The notes under the pieces: generated by a model
The model's database searches: none
The model's input: the letters and a program-made list of their open reading frames with translations, nothing else
What the model was told of the DNA's origin: nothing
Shown: piece by piece, positions 1,362 to 60,298 of the stretch
Numbering within the stretch: position 1 is the first letter of the stretch
Layout: the number at the start of each line of letters is the position of its first letter
Origin: Lepus europaeus
Lineage: Eukaryota > Chordata > Mammalia > Lagomorpha > Leporidae
Direction of reading: 5' to 3'
NCBI RefSeq assembly: GCF_033115175.1
Contig: NC_084832.1
Span: forward strand, 9,599,342-9,663,341
Length of the DNA stretch: 64,000 bases
Position numbers and translations under genes: made by a program

Positions 1362-1615
1362 GAAGTAGGAGCCAGAACGGCAGAGGTAAACCAGGTAGAG
1401 GAAGGGAGTCTACGGGTGGATGGAAATGAGGGAGCTCCCAGAGCTGGGAAAAGTCCGGGGCTGCAAAGAAGGGGGTGCTGGGTTGGCCAGTTCTGAAGGC
1501 GCAGACCACATGGACATCGGTGGAGAGCACTGCGGCCGCGAGGCTGGGTATGGGGGATGCAAAGAAGCTGCAACAGGGCTTCTATGATGCTTTGGTTCAG
1601 GTACTTTTTTCTGGG
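1362..1615. other. Unassigned GC-rich block upstream of composite copy 1
   Basis: This block is clearly more GC-rich than its surroundings and holds several CpGs, including a NotI-type GCGGCCGC near 1533. It is open in more than one frame. No protein family was recognised. It directly abuts the 5' end of the composite element and is absent upstream of composite copy 2. It could be an old exon or promoter fragment, an unknown repeat, or sequence carried with the insertion. Confidence 0.35.
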
Positions 1616-1623
1616 CGGGGGGG

Positions 1624-1633
1624 AAGATGGCGG
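1624..1633 (+). promoter_or_regulatory. YY1-like site at L1 5' end
   Basis: The sequence AAGATGGCGG sits at the extreme 5' end of the element. The same motif is at the 5' ends of the other near full-length L1s here (46203-46212, and 62406-62415 on the minus strand). By analogy with the YY1 site at the start of human L1 it probably positions transcription initiation; that role is inferred. Confidence 0.55.
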
Positions 1634-2525
1634 AATAGGCAGGAAGCACACTTAGTCCGGGGGGACAGAAAGTTTAATATAAGTGGAGATACTGCAGGGT
1701 CAAGGAAGAGTAGGGGATGAAACAGCAGAGGAAACTCTTCCGGAACTAGTGATTCACAGTGGACCTGCGTGGAGAGTGTGGGAGCCCAAGTTCGGGACAC
1801 CAGCGGCAGACTCAACGCACCAGCGCTGGAACGCGAGGTGAGCCGAACCTCCATAGCCCGAGATACCAGCAGGCAAGCGGAAAGAGGAGGCTAGAGGGAA
1901 CGAGGCTTGAAACTCCGTGGGGAAAAGTTCACCAGGCTAACTAGAAGAGAGAGAAAAAAAAAAAGTGACTGATACGGACACAAGTTTCTCTCTCTCCGCT
2001 CACCTCTCAAAGGCGAGCAAGACAGAGCAGGCGCCATTTTGGACATACGTCATAAGCAGGGCGACCTCAGGTCTGCACCGGCCCTGAGCCTAGCAGAAAA
2101 ACCTGACTCTGGGGGGAGGGGTGAAATAACAGGAGATTAGCATCTAACTTGGCAACCCAGTGGGAGACTGCAGGAGAATTGGAGCCCACACTGAGGGCAG
2201 CACAGATTCCCTGTGTGGTCCTTGGGAAAGAGCTTCTGATCTCTGGCTCCTGTGGGTATATCATTCGCCTGCTAACTACCTCCAATTACTTTCAGCTGTG
2301 AGGAATTACTTCCCTTTTAAATCAAAAACAGAAAGAGAGATTTACCACACCTAACCTGGGAGTGTCATCTTTGACACACCCTCAACCCTGAGGAACCAAA
2401 CACAGCTCTTGGGCCACACTCATCTCAAGCCTCTAAGGCTCCACCGAAAGCAGACTGTCCACTTAATATAGAGCCATAGTGTAACAAGAAAAAACACCAC
2501 AGTGAAGAAACCAAATATCTCCAAC

Positions 2526-3563
2526 ATGCCAAACAACAAACGCAAAAACCAAGCTAACAAGAACAAGGAAGAAACTATGACGCCCCCAAATGAAAAAGAC
2601 ACCCCAATTCAAGATTATGAAGATGATGAGATCGAAGAAATGCAAGAAGCAGATCTCAAAAAATTGATAAGAACATTAAGAAGTTCTCAAAAACAAATTC
2701 TTGAACTACAGAAATCCTTCATGGACAAGATAGAAAATCTCTCTCGTGAAAGTGAAATATTAAGGAGGAATCAAAATGAAATGAAACAACTAGTGGAACA
2801 AGAAATTCTGATAGTGACGAGAAATCATAATGAAATGAAGAGTTCAATAGATCAAATGACAAACACATTAGAGAGCCTTAAAAACAGAATGGGCGAAGCA
2901 GAAGAGAGAATATCAGACTTAGAAGACAGAGAACAGGAAAGGAAACAGGCAAACCAAAGAAAAGAAGAAGAAATTAGAAATCTAAAAAATATTGTCAGGA
3001 ATATACAGGATACTATTAAAAAACCCAACATTCGGGTTCTAGGAGTTCCTGAAGGCATGGAGAGGGAGAAAGGATTAGAAGGCATTTTCAGTGAGATACT
3101 AGCAGAAAATTTCCCAGGTTTGGAGAAGGACAGAGGCATCTAAGTACAGGAAGCTTATAGAACCCCTAATAAACATGACCAAAAGAGATCCTCACCACGA
3201 CATGTTGTAATCAAACTCACCACAGTGAAACAGAAAGAAAAGATCCTAAAAGGTGCAAGAGAGAAACGTCAGATCACTCTTAGAGGATCTCCAATTAGAC
3301 TCACAGCAGACTTCTCATCAGAAACCCTACAAGCTAGAAGGGAATGGCGAGACATAGCCCAGGTACTAAGAGAGAAAAACTGCCAGCCCAGAATACTATA
3401 TCCTGCAAAGCTCTCATTTGTGAATGAAGGTGAAATTAAGACTTTTCATAGCAAACAGAAACTGAAAGAATTTGTTGCCACTCATCCTGCCCTGCAAAAG
3501 ATGCTTAAAGATGTCTTACACACAGAAACACAGAAACATGGTCACCAATATGAAAGAAGGTAA
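2526..3563 (+). pseudogene. L1 ORF1 (RNA-binding chaperone), interrupted by one in-frame stop
   Basis: ORF1p is the trimeric nucleic-acid chaperone that coats L1 RNA. The start is taken as MPNNKRKNQ at 2526, because the homologous start is seen at 61729 on the minus strand and the upstream Met at 2502 lies in less conserved sequence. The frame spans 346 codons. A basic/acidic N-terminal segment is followed by a long heptad-rich coiled coil (about residues 45-155) and then the RRM-like and C-terminal domains. A TAA at 3141-3143 (codon 206, inside the RRM-like region) splits it. The frame then stays open to 3563, ending GHQYERR. The same TAA occurs in copy 2 and in the large antisense L1, but the 14.2-15.8 kb element has CTA. 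Without readthrough, only a coiled-coil-containing 205-residue product would be made. Confidence 0.88.
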
Positions 3564-5200
3564 AGGAAGGAAACCTCACAGCAAAAGATCACAGGAAGCT
3601 CAATTTCTCTTTGACATAGAATTAAACTCTGATGCTCTGGTAAAGCAATGTGTTAAAGTAATCTATTATGTTCTCTTGATGTCTGTTAAATTCTAATTGT
3701 TCAAAAACAGCTGAATTTTTATTAAGAGCTATGGGTTATTTAAATATGTGCTTTTTTCAAAGATTTGAATAAGTACCTTGTAACAATGATCAAATTTGGT
3801 CTATGTTATGTCATGATTTGAAGAAATCTTATTTCAACCAGATATTTTGGATTTTGAGCCTTCTTGGCATTCTTGACAGGCATTCAAAAAATCAAAGTTT
3901 CAAACAATCTGGTCTCTAAAATTTCCAGTAAATCCTGGACTTTGGTTTTTCCAGTTTGGGCCCAACTGAAAAAATCGAAGGACCTATGTCTCTCATCTTA
4001 TAGAGACACCAACTAATCAGTCTATTTGGATTATATTAGAAGGACTGTCAAGATGTGATGTGGTACCAGACTTTAAGTTTCTATAATGGAAAATGCTATT
4101 AATACAAATGTTTGAGAATTAAAAAGTCTAATGATCTTGTGTTACTAGACATGATAGTTATCTTAATGAGAAAGCCCCAGAGGCTTAAAGGGTTAAATAC
4201 TTGTAAAATCCTACAGGTGCTTTCAAAAATACTGTGAAGTAAGCAAGTGCCTCTTGTTGGTTGATGAGTTTATAATTTTAAACATGGCGACTTAAAGTCT
4301 TTTGTCATCCACAGTTATATATGATGTGCTGCTCATAAAACTAAAGCGTTGTTGGTTCTGTGTTTAGCTGTCCTCCTATAGGTTCCTATGGACTTTTTCC
4401 AGCCACTTTTATTGTATTCAGTACTTTGGGATGGCTCTGTAAACAGATGAAGCCAATAATGTATTAACAGTACCAACTGAGAGAAAGTATGGTTAACTGA
4501 GGTTACTAAAAAGAAAAAGCAATTCAAATCAATTGGCAATCTACAAAAAGAGTTAAAGATTTTAAAAGCTATTATTAAAATTGCTATATTGGTCTATTAT
4601 GCTATATTATATGTGTGTACATATTGTATGTCCAATGGGGAAATTTTATTAAGAGTTTTATTTTAAATGGCTTATAGATAAGATTGTTCATAAATTTAAG
4701 CTGCTAAAATCAATCAAAGATACATTTTAATTTGTGGGACCTGAATCTGTGTATCATATGTTTTAGACTTGTTGGTAGAAAGAAACTAAAAACATTTTAG
4801 ACGGTTGTGCTTAAGTTTACTGGCTAGACAAACTACACCATGTTAGATATTTAAGAGGTGTTTTCAAATACATGATTCTTAAAATTTATAGAAGGCATTG
4901 GACTTTCTGGTAAATGTTTTCTTAAGTTGTTATCTAATGGTTGAAACGGTTTGCTAAGTATTCATGTGATATTGCTATTGTCAGCAAACGATCTAGGACT
5001 TGCTCCCTCATTTCTCTATTCTAAGCCCAACTTGTTCTTTCATTTCTCTATTCTCTTCAAGGTAGGAAACTAATTCTATTATGAAGGAATCTGTAGGATG
5101 CACAATTTAATCTTTAGGCCTTATAAAAGAGATGGCTAACATTTTTCTGCAATAGCATAGCCAAAATAAGAACTTAAATAATAATCTCATAGCTAGATTC

Positions 5201-5219
5201 ACTTCGCCATCAGCGAAGT
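5201..5219 (+). repeat. Conserved 7-bp-stem hairpin
   Basis: ACTTCGC, a 5-base loop CATCA, then GCGAAGT form a perfect inverted repeat in otherwise AT-rich cargo. The identical 19 bases occur in copy 2 at 49738-49756. Function is unknown. Confidence 0.6.
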
Positions 5220-5377
5220 ATACAGTAAGTAGAAAAATCCTCCCTTTCAGACCAAAGGGAAAGAAAGTTTTAAAGTGAGAATATAATTTTCCTCATGGGC
5301 ATTGTCTACCTTAGAAAAACTACTACAGAACATGCCTGTGACTATAGACTTGTAGTTCAGGCCACCAAAGATTAGAG

Positions 5378-5689
5378 ATGGGACACGGGCACTCCCTTGA
5401 CTTGCATCCTCTGGTCTGCTTTAACACAAACCAGGAGGAAAAGAAAGCTCGGCATCAGAAGCAATGGGTGGCAGGCCTATTAATGGCTGATCTGTACAGT
5501 GATCTGCCCTCAAGGAGACCCAACAGGCCAGTCCACTGCAGTGGCTTTCAATGTGGTAAGCCTGGGCTTCAGCAGAAGTCAGCTTGTGAAGAGCCCTGGC
5601 AGTTCTGCCAAGAGTTGGATCACTGGAAATGGACCTGCCCTGGAGTCGAAGGATGCCCAGGTCAGAGCCACAGATCTTATTGGCTCTAA
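5378..5689 (+). pseudogene. Retroviral gag nucleocapsid-like remnant
   Basis: The 103-codon frame includes a segment, near residues 55-90, with two degenerate Cys/His zinc-knuckle-like motifs. The clearer one reads FCQELDHWKWTCP: the second Cys, His and last Cys have CCHC spacing (C-x4-H-x4-C), but the first Cys position is Trp. The preceding motif, FQCGKPG followed by a Cys, lacks the His. Intact knuckles bind the genomic RNA packaging signal in retroviruses and would be non-functional here. No matrix or capsid sequence was recognised upstream. In copy 2 the frame has an extra upstream stop and survives from 50005 to 50226. Assignment to a gammaretrovirus-like lineage is an inference from order and style only. 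Confidence 0.5.
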
Positions 5690-5754
5690 GCTGAAAAGCC
5701 CTTCACTCAGCCCAACTTCCAAAGTGACCACTGCAGCTGAGGGGATGGTCAAGT

Positions 5755-5850
5755 AGGGTCAGCAACATTGAAGGCAGAACTGTAAATTTCTTGTTAGAGA
5801 TGCCACCTGCCTTTACCTGGCCAGCTCTCCTCCCAGGCCAGCCAAGTAAT
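5755..5850 (+). pseudogene. Retroviral aspartic-protease-like remnant
   Basis: Just downstream of the nucleocapsid-like stretch, in a different frame, the translation RTVNFLLEMPPAFTW resembles the start of a retroviral protease around its active-site loop. The catalytic Asp-Thr/Ser-Gly triad is not preserved (Glu-Met-Pro instead), so it cannot be active. The position after gag and before any pol supports the reading. It is short, so chance similarity is possible. Confidence 0.35.
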
Positions 5851-6250
5851 GAAAGTCAACAGAGTGCCTTCCCCTAGGAGGTTCACACCTCCCTTAGGAT
5901 ATACCCCATGTGAAGAGATTGATAGGTCTGGGCCTCTGAATTTACAAGGCCTAAAGCCCACCAGATTATTATCAAGCCCCTTCTATCAGGTTCTATTTGC
6001 CTCTCAATCAGAAAACTTAATTGTAGCTTAGACAGCGCCTTTCTTAGCTCCTCTAATAATGACTCTGTCCTTTGTTCTAGGCCCTGTCTAGTGCACTTGG
6101 GCCTCATTCCTTTGTAATCATAACCTCTACTCTACCACCAATGGCTCTACTCCCAACATGTGTGTACTGATGGTCCTCTTCCCCACTTAATGCTGTATAA
6201 TTGTTCAAACCTGGTAAATGCCACTCTTAGGATCATTGGTTACTATCCTC

Positions 6251-6728
6251 ACTCTGTCTTTTATGACCTTGTCTAAATATGATCAGAGTCGGCAAACTTG
6301 GAAGGCTTCCATAGCCTTGGCAACTCATGACGACAGCCTAGGATGGTTACTGGCGCCATAAACTAGAGTGTCAATTTGTTGGGTCAACAACAGGAGCCAC
6401 TGTGCACTTGCTCCTCATGTGGGATCTCTGTCCTTAATGTGCTGTACATTGTGATTTAATGCTATAACTAGTACTCAGACAGTATGTTTCACTTTGTGTT
6501 TCTATGTGGGTGCAAACTGTTGAAATCTTTATACTAAATTGATCTTCTGTATATAAAGAGAATTGAAAATGAATCTTGATGTGAATGGAAGGGGAGAGGG
6601 AGCGGGAGAGGGGAGGGTTGCGGGTGGGAGGGAAGTTATGGGGGGGGAAGCCATTGTAATCCATAAACTGTACACTGGAAATTTATATTCATTAAATAAA
6701 AGTTTAAAAAATAAATAAATAAATAAAT
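6251..6728 (+). repeat. L1 3' UTR with G-rich tract and A-rich tail
   Basis: This segment matches the 3' ends of the other L1s here, for example the minus-strand 40618-41300 region. It contains AAACTGTTGAAATCTTTATA, a strongly G-rich purine tract (about 6586-6650) and the terminal ATTCATTAAATAAAAGTT followed by (TAAA)n. A G-rich polypurine tract near the 3' end is a general mammalian L1 feature and has G-quadruplex potential. Only one unit of the 3' UTR duplication described at 40618 is present. Confidence 0.85.
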
Positions 6729-6879
6729 CCAGGTTGGTATAACCTCAAAAAAAAAATTTAGATTGCACTGTGTTTCTTTAAAAATTTCATGGGTAATTGC
6801 CAGTATATTTAAAAACAGGAAGCATATCTGTTCTCCAAATCACTACAGAATGAAAAAGACTCATGATCTGCAAAGAATA

Positions 6880-7243
6880 AAAATAGCCAATATTTATTTA
6901 ACACTCGCTCTATGGCAGGTTCTAGGCAGGTATGTCTGTCTGTCTGTCCCTCTCTCTCCCCACCCCCAAAATACATTCTATGATGTATATGCTATTATTG
7001 GTCCCATTTTTAAGCGATGACATTGAAGATCAGAAAGATACAGTAAGTTGCTCACAGACAAAAAGTGTTAGAACTGGCATTTTAGCCTGGAAGTTTATCC
7101 CTCAGAGCTAGAATATGTGGCCTTCACTAAATGTTTATTGAGAGATTATTATTATTTCATTTAACCTTTCAAGAATTCTACAAGATAAGCAGAATAACTT
7201 AACGACTTAAATATATTATATTAAAGCACAGAGATTTGTGGAT
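6880..7243. repeat. MIR: MIR-like ancient SINE fragments
   Basis: The text resembles MIR consensus features: a 'tatttatttaacactcgctctatggcaggttctaggcagg' type start, then a 'cccatttttaagcgatgacattgaagatcagaaag' type core. A second weaker piece follows at about 7128-7243 before the CSINE. Orientation and exact limits need an alignment. Confidence 0.55.
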
Positions 7244-12869: not shown

Positions 12870-14224
12870 GCCATCTTTAAGATTAGTGACTATCTACTGT
12901 AAATTTTTAAACTCTATTTTCAATCGAGTTTATTTATTTTTATTTTCTTTTCTCTGTATAGTCAATTACAAAGAATTATATTGAGATATAAATAACTGAT
13001 TGTTTAGAACATTTTTTAATACGTTTACAAATTTGGAAAGCAAATCCTGCAGGTAACATTTGAAATACCTACTAAGAAAAACTTTGGTATATGGTCTCAT
13101 TGTATAGACAATATGTAAAGACAAGTTGATAGACTCACAGGATTTGGGTTTTTTATTTATTTTTTTAAGATTTGAAAAAGGTCCCTGTCATTTGACTTTT
13201 AAAGGAGTGAGGTATTGCAATGTTTTCCACTCAATTTTTCACACAGTGCGAATTAACCAGTTATTCATGAATTCATGTCTGTTTATTATTGCATAATATG
13301 ATCTGCTTTTATCTCTTTAGAAAGACAAACCAACTTATTGTCATTGTATATCATCTTTTATTTCACAGGAAGCTAAAACATAAAAGTAAGCAAAGGATCT
13401 GCTACATGGCCGTCATGCTGAATCATGGACCTCAAGTTTTCAAATGTATATAACAGACTCAATTAGCTTCAGTCTCTTAATAAGACATAGGGAATAAATC
13501 ATGCTGATCACTTTGGTAAAATAAAGCCCATGATGCAACTGATGGGCTTGGATTTCATCTCAAGCATGTTAGTCTCATCTCTTCCTTAGTTGATAGCTTA
13601 AACTGAAACTTCTTTATTTTCATGAGTTCACTCCTCTTTAGAAATCTGAAGGGAATAATATCAAAATTTGCTTATCTATTCCCAGTAAAGTAAGATTGCT
13701 TTGGGGGAGAATATTTCTTAAAATAGAAACTTCATTATTTCCACCTATTTTCAAGATAATCTTTTACTACAGAGACAAAGTCCCAATCTAATTAATCATT
13801 ACTCTAATTTTCAGTACCTAAAAATTAGAAGAAATTTTTGGTTTACTATACATTTTCAAGAAATAAGCTAAACACATCTGGTTAGGTCAATAAAATACTT
13901 TCTGCTGCCTTCTAACTATTCTCTGTAATAAATTGCATTAGACACTGGTTTGACTCAATGAAAATAATGTGAATTGATCATAGTCAAAGTGATTTGATTA
14001 ATCACTTGGAATTTTTAATCTCAATTCATAGCAAAATGTTTTTAAATTTTTTTCTTCTAATATATGCAGTCTCCCAAATCACTTTATTTAATGTAAATTT
14101 GGAAGTCTTTGATGAGTCTTAATTAAGACTGTTTTATTCAGCTCTCTTTGGGTCGTTTTGTCAGCAGATGCTTTGAGATGATCGACTCTTACATTTCCTT
14201 TCTCCAAGATGAGAACAAATTATT
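12870..14224. other. Unassigned intergenic sequence
   Basis: AT-rich, no coding signal and no repeat recognised by eye. Confidence 0.5.
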
Positions 14225-15839
14225 TTATTTCTATTTTTCTTTTTTTTAAATTTTTTTATTTAGTAAATATAAATTTCCAAAGTACAGTTTATGGATTACA
14301 ATGGTTTTCCCCCCCATAACTTACCTCCCACTCACCCCCATCCTATCTCCAGATCCCTCTCCCATTCCATTCACATCAAGGTTCATTTTCAATTCTCTTT
14401 ATATACAAAGGATTGATTTAGTATATATTAAGCAAAGATTTCATAGTTTGCACCCACACAGAAACACAAAGTGGTATGGTATATCTTTTCCAGCCTTTCA
14501 CTTTCAGTCTGTGTGCATTTTGTTGGAAAGATGTGTTTCTTGTAAGCAGCAAAAAGATGGGTTTTGTTCCTTAACCTAATCAGCCACTCGGTGTCTTTTA
14601 ACTGGACAGTTCAGGCCATTAACATTCAATGTGACTATTGAGAAGGAGTAACTTTGCCCTGCCATTTGCCAAAGATATTTTCTAATATATGCTTTGAGTT
14701 TCCTGTGATATTTTGCTGTGAGGTTTCCTTCCTTTACCTTCTTTCATATTGATGGCCGTGTTTCTGTGTTTCTGTGTGTAACACATCTTTAAGCATCTTT
14801 TGCAGGGCTGGACAAGTGGCGACAAATTCTTTCAATTTCTGTTTGCTATGAAAGGTCTTTATATCACCTTAATTCACAAATGAGAGCTTTGCAGGATATA
14901 ATATTCTGGGCTGGCAGTTTTTCTCTCTTAGTACCTGGGCTATGTCTTGCCATTCCCTTCTAGCTTGTAGGGTTTCTGATGAGAAGTCTGCTGTGAGTCT
15001 AATTGGAGATCCTCTGAGAGTAATCTGACGTTTCTCTCTTGCACATTTGAGAATCTTTTCTTTGTGTTTCACTGTGGTGAGTTTAATTACAACGTGTCGT
15101 GGTGAGGATCTCTTTTGGTCATGTTTATTAGGGGTTCTATGAGCTTCCTGTACTAGGATGCCTCTGTACTTCTCCAAACCCGGAAAGTTCTCTGCAAGTA
15201 TCTCACTAAAAAGGCCTTCTAATCCTTTCTCTCTCTCCATGCCTTCAGGAACTCCTAGAACCCAAATGTTCGGTTTTTTAATAGTATCCCGTAGATTCCC
15301 AACAATATTTTTTAGATTTCTAATTTCCTCTTCTTTTCTGTGGTTTGACTGTATACTTTCCTGTGCTCTGTCTTCTAAGTCCGATATTCTCTCTTCTGCT
15401 TCACTGACTCTGTTTTTAAGGCTCTCTAATGTGTTTGTCATTTGATCTATTGAGTTCTTCATTTCATTTTGATTTCTCTTCACTATCACACTTTCCTGTT
15501 CTACTAGTTTCTGCATTTCATTTTGATTCCTCCTTAAGATTTCATTTTCTTGAAGGAGATTTTCTATCCTGTCCAGTAAGGAATTCTTTAGCTCAAGCAT
15601 TTGTTTTTGAAAACGGGAGGTGTTGATTCAGCCACTGGTGTCCTGAACCATGGGCTCCCACGCTGTCCATGCAGGTCCACTGTGAATCACTAGTTCCGGA
15701 AGAGTTTTCTCTGCTGTTTCTTCCCCTACTCTTCCTTGAACCTGCAGTATCTCCACTTTTATTAAACTGTCTCTTCCCGAACTATCAGCGTGCTCCCTTC
15801 CTATTCTGCCATCTTGCTGCTCTCCTTATTTCTATTTTT
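14225..15839 (-). mobile_element. Internally deleted L1 with TSD, antisense
   Basis: The element (14239-15825) has both L1 ends but is only about 1.6 kb long. On the minus strand it starts GGAGAGCAGCAAGATGGC (5' UTR, about 210 bases) and jumps directly into the ORF1 coiled coil near 15612. It runs through the rest of ORF1 to 14734, then has only about 200 bases of the ORF2 start (VTLNVNGLN..., endonuclease N-terminus) before joining the 3' UTR at about 14470. Flanks ttatttctattttt at 14225-14238 and 15826-15839 are a 14-bp target-site duplication. Hence two internal deletions existed in one insertion. They may reflect spliced or rearranged RNA, or later deletion. Confidence 0.88.
14734..15612 (-). 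pseudogene. L1 ORF1 fragment lacking the N-terminus
   Basis: The open part (15612-14869) begins at QKQMLELKNSLLDRIENLL, inside the coiled coil. It continues through the RRM-like domain (NIWVLGVPEGMEREKGLEG) and CTD (LTADFSSETLQARREW). At the position where other copies are stopped (GI-TAA), this copy reads through with Leu (GILVQEAHR). A different stop, GAA to TAA, follows LSFVN at 14868-14870, after which homology continues to 14734. The first roughly 60 residues are missing because of the upstream deletion. Confidence 0.88.
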
Positions 15840-40617: not shown

Positions 40618-42876
40618 TTTTTTTATTAAACTTTTATGAATATAAATTTCCAAAGTACAGCTTATGGATTACAGTGGCTTCCCCCTCCCATAACTTCCCT
40701 CCCACCCGCAGTCCTCCCCTTTCCCACTCCCTCTCCCCTTCCATTCACATCAAGATTCATTTTCAATTCTCTTTATATACAGAAGATCAGTTTAGTATAT
40801 ATTAAGTAAAGATTTCAACAGTTTGCCCCCACATAGCAACACAAAGTGAAAAAATACTGTTGGAGTACTAGTTATAGCATTAAATAACAGTGTACAGCAC
40901 ATTAAAGACAGAGATCCTACATGAGGTTTTTTAAAAATTAATTAATTTTCTATGCCATTTCCAATTTAACACCAGGTTTTTTTCCATTTCCAATTATCTT
41001 TATATACAGAAGATAGATTCTGTATATACTTAGTAAAGATTTCATCAGTTTGCACCCACACAGAAACACAAAGTGTAAAAAATACTGTTTCAGTACTAGT
41101 TTTAGCATCACTTCACATTAGACAACACATTAAGGACAGATCCCACATGAGATGTAAGTACACAGTAGACTCCTGTTGCTGACTTAACAATTTGACAATC
41201 TTGTTTATGGCGCCAGTAATCTCCCTAGGCTCTAGTCATGAGTTGCCAAGGCTATGGAATCCTTTAAAGTTCGCCAACTTTGATCTTATTCCGATAGGGT
41301 CATGGTCAAAGTGGAAGTTCTCTCCTCCATTCGGAGAAAGGTACCTCCTTCTTTGATGGCCCTGTTCTTTCCACTGGGGTCTCACTCGCAGAGATCTTTC
41401 ATTTAGGTCTTCTTCTTTTTTTTTTTTTTCTTTTCCATGGTGTCTTGGCTTTCCATGCCTACAATACTCTCATGGGCTCTTCAGCCAGATCCGAATGCCT
41501 TAAGGGCTGATTCTGAAGCCAGAGTGCTGTTTAGGACATCTGCCATTCTATCAGTCTGCTGTGCATCCCGCTTCCCATGTTGGATCATTCTCTCCCTTTT
41601 TGATTCTCTCAGTTAGTATTAGCAGACACTTGTCTTGTTTGTGTGATCCCTTTTACTCTTAGACCTATCAGAGTCATCAATTGTGTACTGAAATTGATCA
41701 CTTGGACTAATGAGATGGCATTGGTACATGCCACCTTGATGGGATTGTATTGGAATCCCCTGGCACATTTCGAACTCCCCCATTTGAGGCAAGTCCGATT
41801 GAGCATGTCCCAAATTGTACATCTCCTCCCTCTCTTTTTCTCATTCTTATATTTAACCGGGATCACTTTTCAGTTAAAATTTAAACACCTTAGAATAATT
41901 GTGTGTTAATTACTGAGTTCAACCACTAGTACTAGAACAACAACAACAACAAATACTAAAAAGGATAAAGTATTACATTGTACATCAACAGTCAGCACAA
42001 GAGCTGATCAGGTCATTGTTTCTTATAGTGTCCATTTCACTTCCACAGGTTTCCCCTTTGGTGCTCAGTTGTCACCGATCAGGGAAAACAATTGATATTT
42101 GTCTCTTTGGGACTGGCTTAATTCACTCAGCATGATGTTTTCCAGATTCCTCCATCTTGTTGCAAATGACCGGGTTTCATTGTTTCTTACTGCTGTATAG
42201 TATTTTATGGAGTACATGTCCCATAATTTCTTTATCCAGTCTACTGTTGTTGGGCATTTGGGTTGGTTCCAGGTCTTAGCTATTGTGAATTCAGCTGCAA
42301 TAAACATTAATGTGCAGATGGCTTTTTTATTTGCCAATTTAATTTCCTTTGGGTAAATTCCAAGGAGTGGGATCGCTGGGTTGTATGGTAGGGTTATGTT
42401 CAGGTTTCTGAGGAATCTCCAGACTGACTTCCATAGTGGCTTAACCAGTTTGCATTCCCACCAACAGTGGGTTAGTGTCCCTTTTTCCCCACATCCTCTC
42501 CAGCATCTATTGTTGGTAGATTTCTGAGTGTGAACCATTCTAACCGGGGTGAGGTGAAACCTCATTGTGGTTTTGATTTGCATTTCTCTGATTGCTAGTG
42601 ATCTTGAACATTTTTTCATGTGTCTGTTGGCCACTTGGATTTCCTCTTTTGGAAAATCTCTATTGAGGTCCTTGGCCCATCTCTTAAGTGGGTTGTTTGT
42701 TTTGTTGTTGTGGATTTTCTTGATTTCCTTGTAGATTCTGGTTATCAACCCTTTATCTGTAGTATAGTTTGCAAATATTTTTTCCCATTCTGTCAGTTGC
42801 CCCTTCACTTTCCTGACTTTCTTTTGAAGTAGAAGAACTTCTCAATTTGACGCAATCCTAAATGTTAATTTTCTTT
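40618..42876 (-). mobile_element. 5'-truncated L1, antisense
   Basis: The 3' end is at about 40618, and the 5' truncation is near 42876 within ORF2, about 40 bases upstream of the MKGQLTEWEKIF segment. It has a bipartite 3' UTR. The unit from about 40640 to 40925 is repeated in diverged form at about 40985-41150, each carrying a CTTTATATACAGAAGAT block and a CACAAAGTG block on the plus strand. Target-site duplication was not resolved. Confidence 0.88.
42065..42840 (-). pseudogene. L1 ORF2 C-terminal fragment with intact frame
   Basis: An open frame of 247 codons covers the C-terminal region of ORF2p: [88 protein letters not shown] and LSQSQRDKYQLFSLIGDN then stop. In L1 this region follows the reverse transcriptase and includes the Cys-rich domain; the HLTPVRM and CGEKGTLTHCWW parts are visible. 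Endonuclease and reverse transcriptase are missing through 5' truncation, so it is inactive. Good frame integrity implies a fairly recent insertion. Confidence 0.92.
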
Positions 42877-46104: not shown

Positions 46105-46192
46105 TAACTTCTACACTTTCAGGCTATATGACCTGGAGCAAGTCACTTTACATCCTCTGCCTGACATTCTTCACTTTAGAAGTGGAATATGA
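46105..46192 (+). repeat. MIR: MIR, left part, interrupted by composite copy 2
   Basis: The sequence CTTTCAGGCTATATGACCTG, 'gagcaagtcactttacatcctctgcctgacattcttcactttagaagtgg', resembles the MIR core 'ctgtgtgaccttgggcaagtcacttaacctctctg...'. It continues at 51252 after the insertion. Confidence 0.72.
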
Positions 46193-46202
46193 GGAGAGCG
46201 GC

Positions 46203-46212
46203 AAGATGGCGG
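46203..46212 (+). promoter_or_regulatory. YY1-like site at L1 5' end
   Basis: AAGATGGCGG starts 11 bases inside the element, the same place as in the other L1 5' ends. Confidence 0.55.
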
Positions 46213-47042
46213 AATAGGCAGGGAGCACACTATTAGTCCGGGGGAGAGACAGTTTAATATAAGTAGAGATACTGCAGGGTCAAGGAAGAGTAGGGGATGA
46301 AACAGCAGAGGAAACTCTTCTGGAACTAGTGATTCACAGTGGACCTGCGTGGAGAGCGTGGGAGCCCAAGTTCGGGACACCAGCGGCAGAATCAACACAC
46401 CAGCGCTGGTACACGAGGTGAGCCAAACCTCAATAGCCCAAGACACCAGCGGGCAAGCGGAAAGAGAAGGCTTAGAAGAGAGAGAGGAAAAAAATAAAAA
46501 AAAGGTGACCGATACGGACACAAGTTTCTCTCTCTCCGCTCACCTCTCAAAGGCGAGCAAGACAAAGCAGGCGCCATTTTGGACATACGTCATAAGCAGG
46601 GCGACCTCAGGTCTGCACCGGCCCTGAGCCTAGCAGAAACACCTGACTCTGGGGGGAGGGGTGAAATAACAGGAGAATAGCATCTAATTTAGCAACCCAG
46701 TGGGAGACTGCAGGAGAATTGGAGCCCACACTGAGGGCAGCAGAGATTCCCTGTGTGGTCCTTGGGAAAGAGCTTCCGATCTCTGGCTCCTGTGGGTATA
46801 TCATTTGCCTGCTAACTACCTCCAATTACGTTCAGCTGTGCAGAATTACTTCCCTTTTGAATCAAAAAAAGAAAGAGAGATTTACCACACCTAACCTGGG
46901 AGTGTCATCTTTGACACACCCTCAACCCTGAGAAACCAAACACAGCTCTCAGTCCACACTCATCTCAAGCCTCTAAGGCTCCACTGAAAGCAGACAGTCC
47001 ACTTAATATAGAGCCATAGTGTAACAAGAAAAAACCCCACAG

Positions 47043-48098
47043 TGAAGAAACCAAATATCTCCAACATGCCAAACAACAAACGCAAAAACCAAGCTAACAA
47101 GAACAAGGAAGACACTGATGCCCCCAAATGAAAAAGACACCCCAATTTACGATTATGAAGATGATGAGATAGAAGAAATGCAAGAAGCAGATCTCAAAAA
47201 ATTGATAAGAACATTAAGTTCTCAAAAACAAATTCTTGAACTACAGGAATCCTTAATGGACAAGATAGAAAATCTCTCTCGTGAAAATGAAATATTAAGG
47301 AGGAATCAAAATGAAATGAAACAACTAGTAGAAAAAGAAACTGTGATAGTGACGAGAAACCATAATGAAATGAAGAATTCAATAGATCAAATGACAAACA
47401 CATTAGAGAGCCTTAAAAACAGAATGGGCGAAGCAGAAGAGAGAATATCAGACTTAGAGGACAGAAAACAGGAAAGGAAACAGGCAAACCAAAGAAAAGA
47501 AGAAGAAATTAGAAATCTAAAAAATATTGTCGGTAATCTACAGGATACTATTGAAAATCCGAACATTCGGGTTCTAGGAGTTCCTGAAGGCCTGGAGAGG
47601 GAGAAAGGATTAGAAGGCATTTTCAGTGAGATACCAGCAGAAAATTTCCCAGGTTTGGAGAAGGACAGAGGCATCTAAGTACAGGAAGCTTATAGAACCC
47701 CTAATAAACATGACCAAAAGAGATCCTCACCACGACATGTTGTAATCAAACTCACCACAGTGAAACATAAAGAAAAGATCCTAAAATGTGCAAGAGAGAA
47801 ACGTCAGATTACTCTCAGAGGATCTCCAATTAGACTCACAGCAGACTTCTCATCAGAAACCCTACAAGCTAGAAGGGAATGGCGAGACATAGCCCAACTA
47901 CTAATAGAGAAAAACTGCCAGCCCAGAATACTATATCCGGCAAAGCTCTCATTTGTGAATGAAGGTGAAATTAAGACTTTTCATAGCAAACAGAAACTGA
48001 AAGAATTTGTTGCCACTCATCCTGCCCTGCAAAAGATGCTTAAAGATGTGTTACACACAGAAACACAGAAACATGGTCACCAATATGAAAGAAGGTAA
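47043..48098 (+). pseudogene. L1 ORF1, frameshifted and with the shared TAA
   Basis: The expected start MPNNKRKNQ is present near 47067. A 2-base loss at about 47110-47118 (GACACTGATGCCC versus GAAACTATGACGCCC in copy 1) throws it out of frame. The rest reads openly from MPPNEKDTPI at 47118 through the coiled coil and first part of the RRM-like domain to the TAA at 47676-47678, then in the same frame to 48098 (GHQYERR stop). The TAA is the same GGCATCTAAGTACAGG seen in copy 1 and in the 53.9-62.4 kb L1. Confidence 0.85.
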
Positions 48099-48138
48099 AG
48101 GAAGGAAACCTCACAGCAAAAGATCACAGGAAGCTCAA

Positions 48139-50788
48139 TTTCTCTTTGACATAGAATTAAACTCTGATGCTCTGTTAAATCAATGTGTTAAAGTAATCTA
48201 TTATGTTCTCTTGATGTCTGTTAAATTCTAATTGTTCAAAAACAGCTGAATTTTTATTAAGAGCTATGGGTTATTTAAATATGTGCTTATTTTCAAAGAT
48301 TTGAATAATCACCTTGTAACAATGATCAAATTTGGTCTATGTTATGTCATGATTTTAAGGAATCTTATTTCAACCAGATATTTTGGATTTTGAGCCTTCT
48401 TGGCATTCTTGACAGGCATTCAAAACATCAAAGTTTCAAACAATCTGGTCTCTAAAATTTCCAGTAAATCCTGGACTTTGGTTTTTCCCGTTTGGGCCCA
48501 ACTGAAAAAATCGAAGGACCTATGTCTCTCATCTTATAGAGACACCAACTAATCAGGCTATTTGGATTATATTAGAAGGACTGTCAAGATGTGACGTGGT
48601 ACTAAATTTTAAGTTTCTATAATGGAAAATGCTATTAATACAAATGTTTGAGAATTAAAAAGTCTAATGATCTTGTGTTACTAGACATGATAGTTATCTT
48701 AATGAGAAAGCCCCAGAGGACTAAAGGGTTAAATACTTGTAAAATCCTACAGGTGCTTTCAAAAATACTGTGAAGTAAGCAAGTGCCTCTTGTTGGTTGA
48801 TGAGTTCATAATTTTAAACATGGCGACTTAAAGTCTTTTGTCATCCATAGTTATATATGATGTGCTGCTCATAAAACTAAAGCGTTGTTGGTTCTGTGTT
48901 TAGCTGTCCTCCTATAGGTTCCTATGGACTTTTTCCAGCCACTTCTATTGTATTCAGTATTTTGGGATGGCTCTGTAAACAGATGAAGCCAACAATGTAT
49001 TAAAAATACCAACTGAGAGAAAGTATGGTTAACTGAGGTTACTAAAAAGAAAAAGCAATTCAAATCAATTGGCAATCTACAAAAAGAGTTAAAGATTTTA
49101 AAAGCTATTATTAAAATTGCTATATTGGTCTATTATGCTATGTTATATGTGTGTACATATTGTATGTCCACCTGGGGAAATTTTATTAAGAGTTTTATTT
49201 TAAATGGCTTATAGATAAGATTGTCCATAAATTCAAGCTGCTAAAATCAATCAAAGATACATTTTAATTTGTGTGACCTGAATCTGTGTATCATATGTTT
49301 TAAACGTGTTGGTAGAAAGAAACTAAAAACATTTTAGATGGCTGTGCTTAAGTTTACTGGTTAAACAAACTACACCATGTTAGATATTTAAGAGGTGTTT
49401 CCAAATACATGATTCTTAAAATTTATAGAAGGCATTGGACCTTCTGGTAAATGTTTTCTTAAGTTGTTATCTAATGGTTGAAACGGTTTGCTAAGTATTC
49501 ATGTAATATTGCTATTGTCAGCAAGCGATCTAGGACTTGCTCCCTCATTTCTCTATTCTAAGCCCAACTTGTTCTTTCATTTCTCTATTCTCTTCAAGGT
49601 AGGAAACTAATTCTATTATAAAGGAATCTGTAGGATGCACAATTTAATCTTTAGACCTTATAAAAGAGATGGCTAACATTTTTCTGTAATAGCATAGCCA
49701 AAATAAGAACTTAAATAATAATCTCATAGCTAGATTCACTTCGCCATCAGCGAAGTATACAGTAAGTAGAAAAAACCTCCCTTTCAGACCAAAGGGAAAG
49801 AAAGTTTTAAAGTGAGAATATAATTTTCCTCATGGGCATTGTCTACCTTAGAAAAACTACTACAGAACATGCCTGTGACTATAGACTTGTAGTTCAGGCC
49901 ACCGAAGATTAGAGATGGGACACGGGCACTCCCTTGACTTGCATCCTCTGGTCTGCTTTAACACAAACCAGGAGGAAAAGAAAGCTCGGCATCAGAAGCA
50001 ATGAGTGGCAGGCCTATTAATGGCTGATCTGTACAGCGATCTGCCCTCAAGGAGACCCAACAGGCCAGTCCACTGTAGTAGCTTTCAATGTGGTAAGCCT
50101 GGGCTTCAGCAGAAGTCAGCTTGTGAAGAGCCCTGGCAGCTCTGCCAAGAGTTGGATCACTGGAAATGGACCTGCCCTGGAGTCGAAGGATGCCCAGGTC
50201 AGAGCCACAGATCTTTTTGGCTCTAAGCTGAAAAGCCCTTCACTCAGCCCAACTTCCAAAGTGACCACTGCAGCTGAGGGGATGGCCACGTAGGGTCAGC
50301 AATATTGAAGGCAGAACTGTAAATTTCTTGTTAGAGATGGCCCCTGCCTTTACCTGGCCAGCTCTCCTCCCAGGCCAGCTAATTAATGAAAGTCATCAGG
50401 GTGCCTTTCCTCAGGTGGTTCACACCTCCCTTAGGATATACCCCATGTGAAGAGATAGATAGGCCTGGGCCTCTGAATTTACAAGGCCTAAAGCCCACCA
50501 GATTATTATCAAGCCCCTTCTATCAGGTTCTATTTGCCTCTCAATCAGAAAACTTAATTGTAGCTTAGACAGCACCTTTCTTAGCTCCTCTAATAATGAC
50601 TCTGTCCTTTGTTCTAGGCCCTGTCTAGTGCACTTGGGCCTCATTCCTTTGTAATCATAACCTCTACTCTACCACCAATGGCTCTACTCCCAACCTGTGT
50701 GTACTGATGGTCCTCTTCCCCACTACATTTTGTATAATTGTTCAAACCTGGTTAATGCCACTCTTAGGATCATTGGTTACTATCCTCA
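48139..50788 (+). other. Non-L1 cargo segment, copy 2
   Basis: This is the counterpart of 3604-6250 with the same order: AT-rich leader, conserved hairpin (49738-49756), nucleocapsid-like stretch (50005-50226), protease-like stretch (about 50288-50380) and possible hydrophobic transmembrane remnant (about 50575-50625). Both junctions with L1 sequence fall at the same place in the two copies. Confidence 0.6.
50005..50226 (+). pseudogene. Retroviral gag nucleocapsid-like remnant, copy 2
   Basis: The 73-codon frame contains the same degenerate CCHC-like motif as copy 1 (LCQELDHWKWTCP, first Cys replaced by Trp). An upstream TGG to TGA change at about 50003 removes the longer frame seen in copy 1. 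Confidence 0.5.
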
Positions 50789-51251
50789 CCCTGTCTTTTA
50801 TGACCTTGTCTAAATATGATCAGAGTCGGCAAACTTGGAAGGCTTCCATAGCCTTGGCAACTCATGACGACAGCCTAGGGTGGTTACTGGCGCCATAAAC
50901 TAGAGTGTCAATTTGTTGGGTCAACAACAGGAGCCACTGTGCACTTGCTCCTCAAGTGGGATCTCTGTCCTTAATGTGCTGTACATTGTGATTTAATGCT
51001 ATAAGTAGTATTCCAACAGTATGTTTCACTTTGTGTTTCTATGTGGGTGCAAACTGTTGCAATCTTTATACTAAATTGATCTTCTGTATATAAAGAGAAT
51101 TGAAAATGAATCTTGATGCAAATGGAAGGGGAGAGGGAGCGGGAGAGGGGAGGGTTGCTGGTGGGGGGGAAGTTATGGGAGGGGGAAGCCATTGTAATCC
51201 ATAAGCTGTACAGTGGAAATTTATATTCATTAAATAAAAGTTAAAAAAAGA

Positions 51252-51330
51252 AGAAGTGGAATATGAGAGATCCCACCTCATGGAGTTGGCAGAATAACTG
51301 ATTATGTTCATATATTGAAAAGCAAGCAGA
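51252..51330 (+). repeat. MIR: MIR, right part
   Basis: After the duplicated 16 bases the MIR text resumes: 'agatcccacctcatggagttggcagaataactgattatgtt', like the MIR 'tacctcatagggttgttgtgaggatt' segment. Confidence 0.68.
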
Positions 51331-53885: not shown

Positions 53886-55339
53886 GTTTAAAGATTTTTT
53901 TATCTTTTAATTAATGAATATAAATTTCCAAAGTACAGCTTATGGATTACAATGGCTTCCCCCCCATAACTTCCATAACTTCACTCCCACCCGCAAACCT
54001 CCCCTTTCCCACTCCCTCTCCCCTTCCATTCACATCAAGATTCATTTTCAATTCTCTTTATATACAGAAAATCAGTTTAGTATATATAAAGATTTCAACA
54101 GTTTGCCCTCACATAGCAACACAAAGTGAAAAAATACTGTTGGAGTACTAGTTATAGCATTAAATAACAGTGTACAGCACATTAATGACAGAGATCCTGC
54201 ATGATATTTTTTTAAAAACATTGATTAATTTTCAAGGGTTTTTTTTTTTTCATTTTCAATTATCTTTATATACAGAAGATCGATTCAGTATATACTAAGT
54301 AAACATTTCATCAGTTTGCACCCACACATAAACACAAACTATAAAAATACTGTTTTAGTACTAGCAATATCATTACTTCACATTGGACAACCCATTAAGG
54401 ACAGATCCCACATGGGACGTAAGTACACAGTGACTCCTGTTGCTGACTTAACAATTTGACAATCTTGTTTATGGCGTCAGTAATCTCCCTAGGCTCTAGT
54501 CATGAGCTGCCGAGGCTATGGAAGCCTTTAAGGTTTGCCGACTTCGATCTCATTCCGACAGGGTCATAGTCAAAGTGGAAATTCTCTACTCCCTTCAGAG
54601 AAAGGTACCTCCTACCTTGAAGGCCCTGTTCTTTTACTGGGATCACACTTGCTGAGATCCTCCATTTAGGTCTTCTTCTTCTTCTTCTTCTTCTTTTTTT
54701 TTTTCCAGAGTGTCTTGGCTTTCCATGCCTAAAATACTCTCATAGGCTCTTCAGCCAGATCCAAATGCCTTAAGGGCTGATTCTGAGGCCAGAGTGCTAT
54801 ATAGGACATCTGCCATTCTATCAGTCTGCTGTGTCTCCCCCTTCCCATGTAGGATACTTCTCTCCCTTTTTTGGTTTTATCAGTTAGTATTAGCAGACAC
54901 TTGTCTTGTTTGTGTGATCCCTTTGACTTTTAGATCTATCAGTGTGATCAATTGTGAACTGAAATTGATCACTTGGACTAGTGAGATGGCATTGGTGCAT
55001 GCCACCTTGATGGGATTGTATTGGAATCCCCTGGCACATTTCTAACTCCATAATTTGGGGCAAGTCCGATTGAGCATGTCCCCAATTGTACATCTCCTCC
55101 CTCTGTTTTTCTCATTCTTATATTTAACCGGGATCACTTTTCAGTTAAGATTTAAACACCTAAGAATAATTGTGTGTTAATTACAGAGCTCAACCACTAG
55201 TACTAGAACAACAACAACAACAAATACTAAAAAGGATAAAGTATTACATTGTACATCAACAGATAGCACAAGAGCTGATCAAGTCACTGTTTCTCATAGT
55301 GTCCATTTCACTTCCACAGATTTCCCCTTTGGTGTTCAG

Positions 55340-60298
<4,959 letters not shown>

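Follow-up and report, generated by a model that had tools for sequence, protein, structure and literature searches.

Half-L1 (HAL1) elements are relatives of the L1 retrotransposon that carry only the first L1 open reading frame, ORF1. A passage of PMC5753468 states that they arose several times independently, and the part of PMC3627910 that deals with guinea pig HAL1 reports that ORF1 coding was kept for about 29 to 44 million years. Two further kinds of L1-mobilized sequence are relevant here: SVA elements, which contain a HERVK10-derived part according to a passage of PMC5753468, and the HERV-W processed pseudogenes, described in sections of PMC6995185 as copies of proviral transcripts made by the L1 machinery. 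Here we describe a composite element found twice in a 64,000-nucleotide stretch of the hare Lepus europaeus (assembly GCF_033115175.1, contig NC_084832.1, positions 9,599,342 to 9,663,341), which we call the window. We favor the explanation, to which we give a probability of about 0.77, that the composite is a HAL1-type family in which a non-L1 segment of 2.66 kb (the cargo), part of it possibly a decayed endogenous retrovirus, replaces L1 ORF2 and the proximal part of the 3′ untranslated region (UTR).

Two copies with the same junctions

The two copies, A (1616 to 6728) and B (46194 to 51251), lie 44.5 kb apart; all coordinates are those of the window unless a locus is named. Both have the order L1 5′ UTR, ORF1, cargo, distal L1 3′ UTR and A-rich tail. 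They are colinear, with 96.8% identity across one 4,776-column alignment (1943 to 6711 in A) and 92.4% across a further 278 columns covering the beginning of the 5′ UTR. The DNA on either side is unrelated, the longest blastn match between the flanks being 35 nucleotides (nt), and copy B is bounded by a perfect 16-nt target-site duplication.

The 5′ junction, where L1 sequence on the ORF1 side meets the cargo, lies at 3603/3604 in A and at 48138/48139 in B. The 3′ junction, between cargo and L1 3′ UTR, was placed at 6261/6262 in A from eight native L1 3′ UTRs that start to match the composite at 6260 to 6263. Other native matches begin downstream of this point, at 6275 for L027 and at 6385 or later for the rest. 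The native L1s of the window match the composite at 87% in the 5′ UTR, at 91 to 94% in ORF1 and, depending on the stretch, at 77 to 90% in the distal 3′ UTR. Three older L1 3′ UTRs (40632 to 41303, 53894 to 54568 and 56944 to 57649) differ from the composite in carrying a tandem duplication (about 160 nt).

The initial annotation had described two colinear composites with the same junctions and unrelated flanks, each with an L1 5′ UTR and ORF1, no ORF2, and an L1 3′ UTR with an A tail. The alignment, the Pfam domains of ORF1 (see below) and the native 3′ UTR matches bear this out. Its statement that both copies have an ORF1 needs a qualification: the reading frame is present in both and broken in both, by a stop codon in A and by a frameshift in B.

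A large family with a fixed architecture

The composite is a real mobile family of thousands of copies with one fixed architecture. We searched the genome (2.93 Gb in 649 contigs) with a 34-mer across the 5′ junction, allowing up to two mismatches, and a 40-mer across the 3′ junction, allowing up to three, and used the reversed patterns as controls. The 5′ junction was matched 7,890 times and the 3′ junction 17,061 times; both reversed controls gave 0. The larger number of 3′ junctions is expected from 5′ truncation. If all 7,890 elements were 5.1 kb long they would occupy about 40 Mb, an upper bound obtained by arithmetic and not by measurement. A query with 3604 to 4600 returned 1,145 candidates; the 40 that were scored were all at 99 to 100%, and high-identity copies were spread over many contigs. 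SINE-like repeats in this genome resemble rabbit C-SINEs, which fits a lagomorph.

Twenty copies (L009 to L028) were taken from the best-scoring list and are thus picked for similarity to A. All 20 have the 5′ junction with ORF1 sequence upstream of it, and the span from 5′ UTR to 3′ UTR is found in 17 of the 20, three of those being 5′-truncated or internally deleted. An unselected set was collected by moving along contig C1 and keeping 30 successive loci with an exact match to the 5′ junction; ORF1 lies upstream of the junction and cargo downstream in every one. The first 49 Mb of C1 contain 81 exact 5′ junctions, and for 37 of them an exact 3′ junction lies in the same orientation no more than 6 kb away. 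The spacing of these 37 pairs is 2,643 to 2,665 nt in 21 cases (full cargo), 2,089 to 2,108 nt in 8 (a 552-nt deletion class) and something else in the remaining 8.

Three deletions are common, and all fall in the AT-rich block of the cargo: 3772 to 4323 (552 nt), 3858 to 4585 (728 nt) and 3666 to 4505 (840 nt), found in seven, three and two of the 30 C1 loci, respectively. In a tree built from ORF1, the 552-nt group is monophyletic (7/7, support 0.94), as is the 840-nt group (2/2, support 0.997), and the 728-nt group forms a clade of three plus L010. The agreement between the deletion groups and the ORF1 tree indicates that ORF1 and cargo have been inherited together, with occasional exchange. 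L010 itself combines the ORF1 of the 728-nt-deletion clade with a full young cargo and ends, on the 3′ side, in two A-runs separated by additional sequence; it looks like a mosaic copy. Splicing was rejected as the source of the common deletions: by eye, the breakpoints have no GT-AG ends.

Insertion and age

Target-site duplications were sought in the 19 copies that have both ends, namely A, B and 17 of the best-scoring copies (L015, L020 and L022 lack an end). Exact duplications of 11 to 23 nt were present in 14 of the 19, and 13 of these 14, all except that of L026, beat the best of 20 control draws. L009 has a 17-nt duplication with one mismatch. The sites TTTT/AAAA (L009) and CTTT/AGAA (B) fit the L1 endonuclease consensus; the other sites are looser. 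Since the duplications lie around the complete L1-cargo-L1 unit, the chimera is mobilized whole, by retrotransposition of the L1 type, as the initial annotation had proposed.

Young copies differ from one another by about 0.5 to 1.8% outside CpG sites. In two of them, L032 and L041, the ORF1 region carries no substitution of its own, so that the family was recently active. Among the rearranged copies, L019 (1 to 8501) consists of one composite inserted into the cargo of another, with an exact 18-nt target-site duplication, and L060 has its 5′ part inverted.

ORF1 is kept open

Pfam recognizes Transposase_22 and Tnp_22_dsRBD in the 3′ half of the composite ORF1. The frame is intact in 31 of 52 copies and in 17 of the 30 loci of the unselected C1 set. 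In a comparison of 50 copies (L020 and L022 were dropped), only two indels, of 6 and 3 nt, are common to several copies; both are in frame, and indels that break the frame each occur in a single copy. The ratio of nonsynonymous to synonymous substitution rates (dN/dS), computed for the 31 intact copies, is 0.28 to 0.55, depending on the divergence bin. ORF1 is kept open in the source elements of the family. Its intactness, the private nature of the frame-breaking indels and the dN/dS values all fit a need for an ORF1 protein (ORF1p) encoded in cis, and the family probably uses its own ORF1p. The same argument is made for guinea pig HAL1 in the corresponding part of PMC3627910.

The stop common to A and B results from a change of TTA to TAA and, among the 50 copies, is found in these 2, whose ORF1 sequences otherwise differ by about 3%. 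Local gene conversion is a possible source.

The cargo looks like noncoding filler

The composition of the cargo changes along its length, from 27 to 35% GC up to about 5330 to 44 to 54% GC thereafter. Pfam gave 0 matches for six pieces within the cargo or extending into it, and six-frame translation of the A and B cargo revealed no long open reading frame. In the GC-richer block, the same open stretch of 113 amino acids at 5348, with identical bounding stops, is found in 14 of 19 copies, and in none of the 19 does an open stretch exceed 135 amino acids. That this stretch ends at identical stops across copies indicates that decay of the block preceded the spread of the family.

A short part of this block recalls retroviral proteins. 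The translation of about 5520 to 5640 resembles two zinc knuckles, with a score equalled in 1 of 1,500 shuffles, the template having been picked post hoc, and that of 5750 to 5880 may, judged by eye, resemble a class I protease. The piece from 5348 to 5686 found no relative in PDB, in the protein database or among viral contigs. We regard the nucleocapsid and protease likeness as weak and retroviral ancestry of the GC-richer third as suggestive only; nothing supports such ancestry for the AT-rich two thirds (about 1.7 kb). The initial annotation had called the cargo retrovirus-like. What survives of this is a degenerate gag/protease resemblance over about 0.5 kb, with no support from the databases, and nothing ties the other 1.7 kb to retroviruses.

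Between 3500 and 6400 there is no direct repeat longer than 27 nt, hence no repeat like a long terminal repeat (LTR), and no tandem array. A structured RNA family was rejected, as no Rfam match reached the gathering score within 1500 to 6900. The fold of 5330 to 5830 (z = −1.98, with 2 of 100 shuffles equally stable) is too weak to use. Divergence compared region by region did not clearly indicate that the cargo is under constraint, and the low values for the GC-richer block in old copies rest on few comparisons. The cargo looks like noncoding filler carried by the element.

Table 1. Parts of composite copies A and B and the target-site duplication of B, in window coordinates
Feature	Position	Strand	Basis or remark
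Copy A, L1 5′ UTR	1620..2525	+	Alignment; 5′ end ambiguous by a few bases
Copy A, L1 ORF1 (345 codons + stop)	2526..3563	+	Pfam domains; in-frame TAA at 3141-3143
Copy A, short L1 stretch (40 nt) after ORF1	3564..3603	+	A few shared letters blur the exact junction base
Copy A, cargo, AT-rich block, non-L1, no coding signal	3604..5330	+	Composition, translation
Copy A, cargo, GC-richer block	5331..6261	+	Degenerate nucleocapsid/protease-like stretch at about 5348-5880; no Pfam, PDB or protein match
Copy A, distal L1 3′ UTR and A-rich tail	6262..6728	+	Starts of native L1 3′ UTR matches
Copy B, 5′ target-site duplication AGAAGTGGAATATGAG	46178..46193	+	Exact repeat
Copy B, L1 5′ UTR, without 40 nt found in A	46194..47065	+	Boundaries computed from A/B alignment
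Copy B, L1 ORF1, frameshifted	47066..48098	+	Alignment, frame check
Copy B, cargo, junctions identical to A	48139..50798	+	Alignment
Copy B, L1 3′ UTR and A-tail	50799..51251	+	Alignment
Copy B, 3′ target-site duplication	51252..51267	+	Exact repeat

Origin of the composite

In a HAL1-type family of this kind, RNA would be made from the L1 5′ UTR promoter and coated in cis by the ORF1p that it encodes. ORF2p would be supplied in trans by L1, as the missing ORF2 taken together with the L1-type insertions suggests. During reverse transcription, switches of template from one related RNA to another would account for cargo deletions and for exchanged 5′ portions.

Several observations weigh against this explanation or limit it. 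Copies A, L023 and L028 lack a convincing target-site duplication, that of L014 is A-rich and doubtful, and that of L026 is not above the controls. Two in-frame ORF1 stops are each found in two copies, at 3141 (A and B) and at 3198 (L038 and L055). The dN/dS values come from intact copies alone, and the constraint that they reflect may partly date from autonomous L1 ancestors. Some old copies diverge more in ORF1 than in cargo; L036, for example, is 7.0% from A in ORF1 and 3.9% in the first 1.4 kb of the cargo. ORF1 and cargo are thus not always of one history, and L036 may be another case of exchange. A 2011 table of rabbit families less than 1% divergent, in PMC3183009, contains no L1 or HAL1; a reviewer whose comments are printed with that article rated the rabbit annotation low.

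The last such observation is a second junction. In L061 (260 to 330 of that locus), the end of ORF1 is followed by about 250 nt of L1, about 37 nt that match neither L1 nor cargo, and then cargo from 4137. The L1 part is 90 to 92% identical, over about 250 nt, to the native L1s of the window beyond ORF1. We read it as the putative start of ORF2; it had no Pfam match. The structure may be a composite that acquired a new L1 front by template switching, or it and the main form may go back to a common L1 ancestor with both ORF2 and cargo. In the window itself, a native-looking L1 at 14224 to 15832 extends about 220 nt past its ORF1 and there jumps to the terminal portion of the 3′ UTR; this break is close to the point at which L061 leaves L1 sequence.

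The second of these possibilities belongs to a different history, in which the cargo first entered an autonomous L1 as a long new 3′ UTR (ORF1-ORF2-cargo-3′ UTR) and ORF2 was deleted later, more than once, leaving some forms with ORF1 only and others with a stub of ORF2. In that case the family would consist of internally deleted L1s and not of a captured HAL1. L061, with its L1 sequence beyond the end of ORF1 and its different junction at 4137, is what such a history would leave behind, and replacement of L1 UTRs by unrelated sequence is known, as a passage of PMC5753468 relates. However, the start of the cargo is preceded by the end of ORF1 in 7,890 places (up to two mismatches) and by anything else in only 3 (up to one mismatch), and neither of the two exceptions that were inspected has ORF2 before the cargo. 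L061 is a single locus, its junction was not found in the other copy sequences compared, its ORF2-like part is the one without a Pfam match, and a template switch from cargo to native L1 RNA would yield its structure too. We consider this history unlikely.

The same counts bear on a parent of the cargo. One of the two inspected cargo starts without preceding L1 letters is a 5′-truncated composite and the other has an inverted 5′ part, so that neither is a parent copy, although a diverged parent would escape this search; the third, on contig C4, reads like a composite minus one base. Conversely, the end of ORF1 without the composite junction was matched 1,934 times (up to one mismatch). These matches are not assignable to native L1s, since the only one inspected, L061, joins the cargo later, and the figure was obtained with a different pattern and mismatch limit from the 7,890. 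The initial annotation had also proposed a new route for the spread of retroviral sequence. This proposal is not established: the search turned up no separate cargo parent, and the sections of PMC6995185 cited above already describe retroviral transcripts copied by L1.

A further view, which we find distinctly unlikely, takes the composite as an ORF1-bearing L1 parasite that has come to outnumber comparable L1s in the host genome and uses template switching to renew itself. The 3′ part (cargo plus 3′ UTR) would be kept while pieces of cargo and 5′ halves were traded with L1 RNAs, and some of the cargo would be retained not as filler but for a benefit to the RNA, such as export or packaging.

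Very improbable is a provirus, or an L1-made copy of a retroviral transcript, with L1 pieces inserted into or beside it. It would explain the nucleocapsid- and protease-like letters in the GC-richer block, but there is no LTR-like direct repeat in 3500 to 6400, the target-site duplications enclose the full L1-cargo-L1 unit, and the same two junctions recur. For the unit, a provirus with LTRs is refuted; this says nothing about the source of the cargo.

Finally, a segmental duplication or assembly artefact that made A and B copies of one accidental chimera has next to no chance: their proximity in one window and their common ORF1 stop would fit it, but the unrelated flanks, the separate target-site duplications, including that of B, the thousands of junctions and the high-identity copies on many contigs refute it, and the initial annotation's own worry, that only two copies linked by shared flanks might exist, falls with it.

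Significance

The HAL1-type family favored here has reached thousands of copies, with deletion subfamilies and very young insertions among them, although 2.66 kb of foreign and apparently noncoding sequence stands where ORF2 would be. It can serve as a natural experiment for three questions: what an L1 RNA must contain in cis, whether its ORF1p has to come from the same RNA, and how L1 frames may acquire unrelated sequence through template switching. For annotation, tools may label such copies as truncated L1s or as endogenous retroviruses.

Our literature search turned up no HAL1 of rabbit or hare that contains a comparable segment, the main HAL1 paper (Bao and Jurka 2010) and the repeat databases being outside its coverage, so that the initial annotation's word "undescribed" is unproven. 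There is a real chance that a family of this abundance already stands in Repbase or Dfam under an L1 or HAL1 name. The chimeric L1 treated in the relevant part of PMC6500023 is an engineered one and has no bearing on the composite family.

Comparison with known systems

The composite shares its 5′ UTR, ORF1 and distal 3′ UTR with the native L1s of the window; unlike them, it has no ORF2. Like SVA and LAVA, it is a composite presumably mobilized by L1. Unlike them, it has L1 sequence at both ends, keeps ORF1 and has no tandem array in its cargo (3500 to 6400); the SVA-type architecture of variable number of tandem repeats (VNTR), Alu and SINE-R without an L1 ORF is not that of the composite. 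As with the HERV-W processed pseudogenes, retroviral sequence, here a possibility, would have been copied by the L1 machinery; in contrast to them, the possible retroviral fragment travels inside an L1 frame, as a family.

The closest likeness is to HAL1, the precedent named in the initial annotation, and the HAL1 features open to testing were found. The composite has a coding, L1-derived ORF1 and inserts in the L1 manner, with target-site duplication and A-tail. It also lacks ORF2, the cargo filling the interval between ORF1 and 3′ UTR in A and B, while the variant L061 has L1 sequence like the start of ORF2. As in guinea pig and marmoset HAL1, the element is L1-derived with ORF1 only, ORF2 is presumably supplied in trans, and ORF1 coding has long been kept. 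The apparent difference is the 2.66-kb non-L1 segment between ORF1 and the distal 3′ UTR. It is this replaced middle that is unusual; otherwise, the composite works like a HAL1 family.

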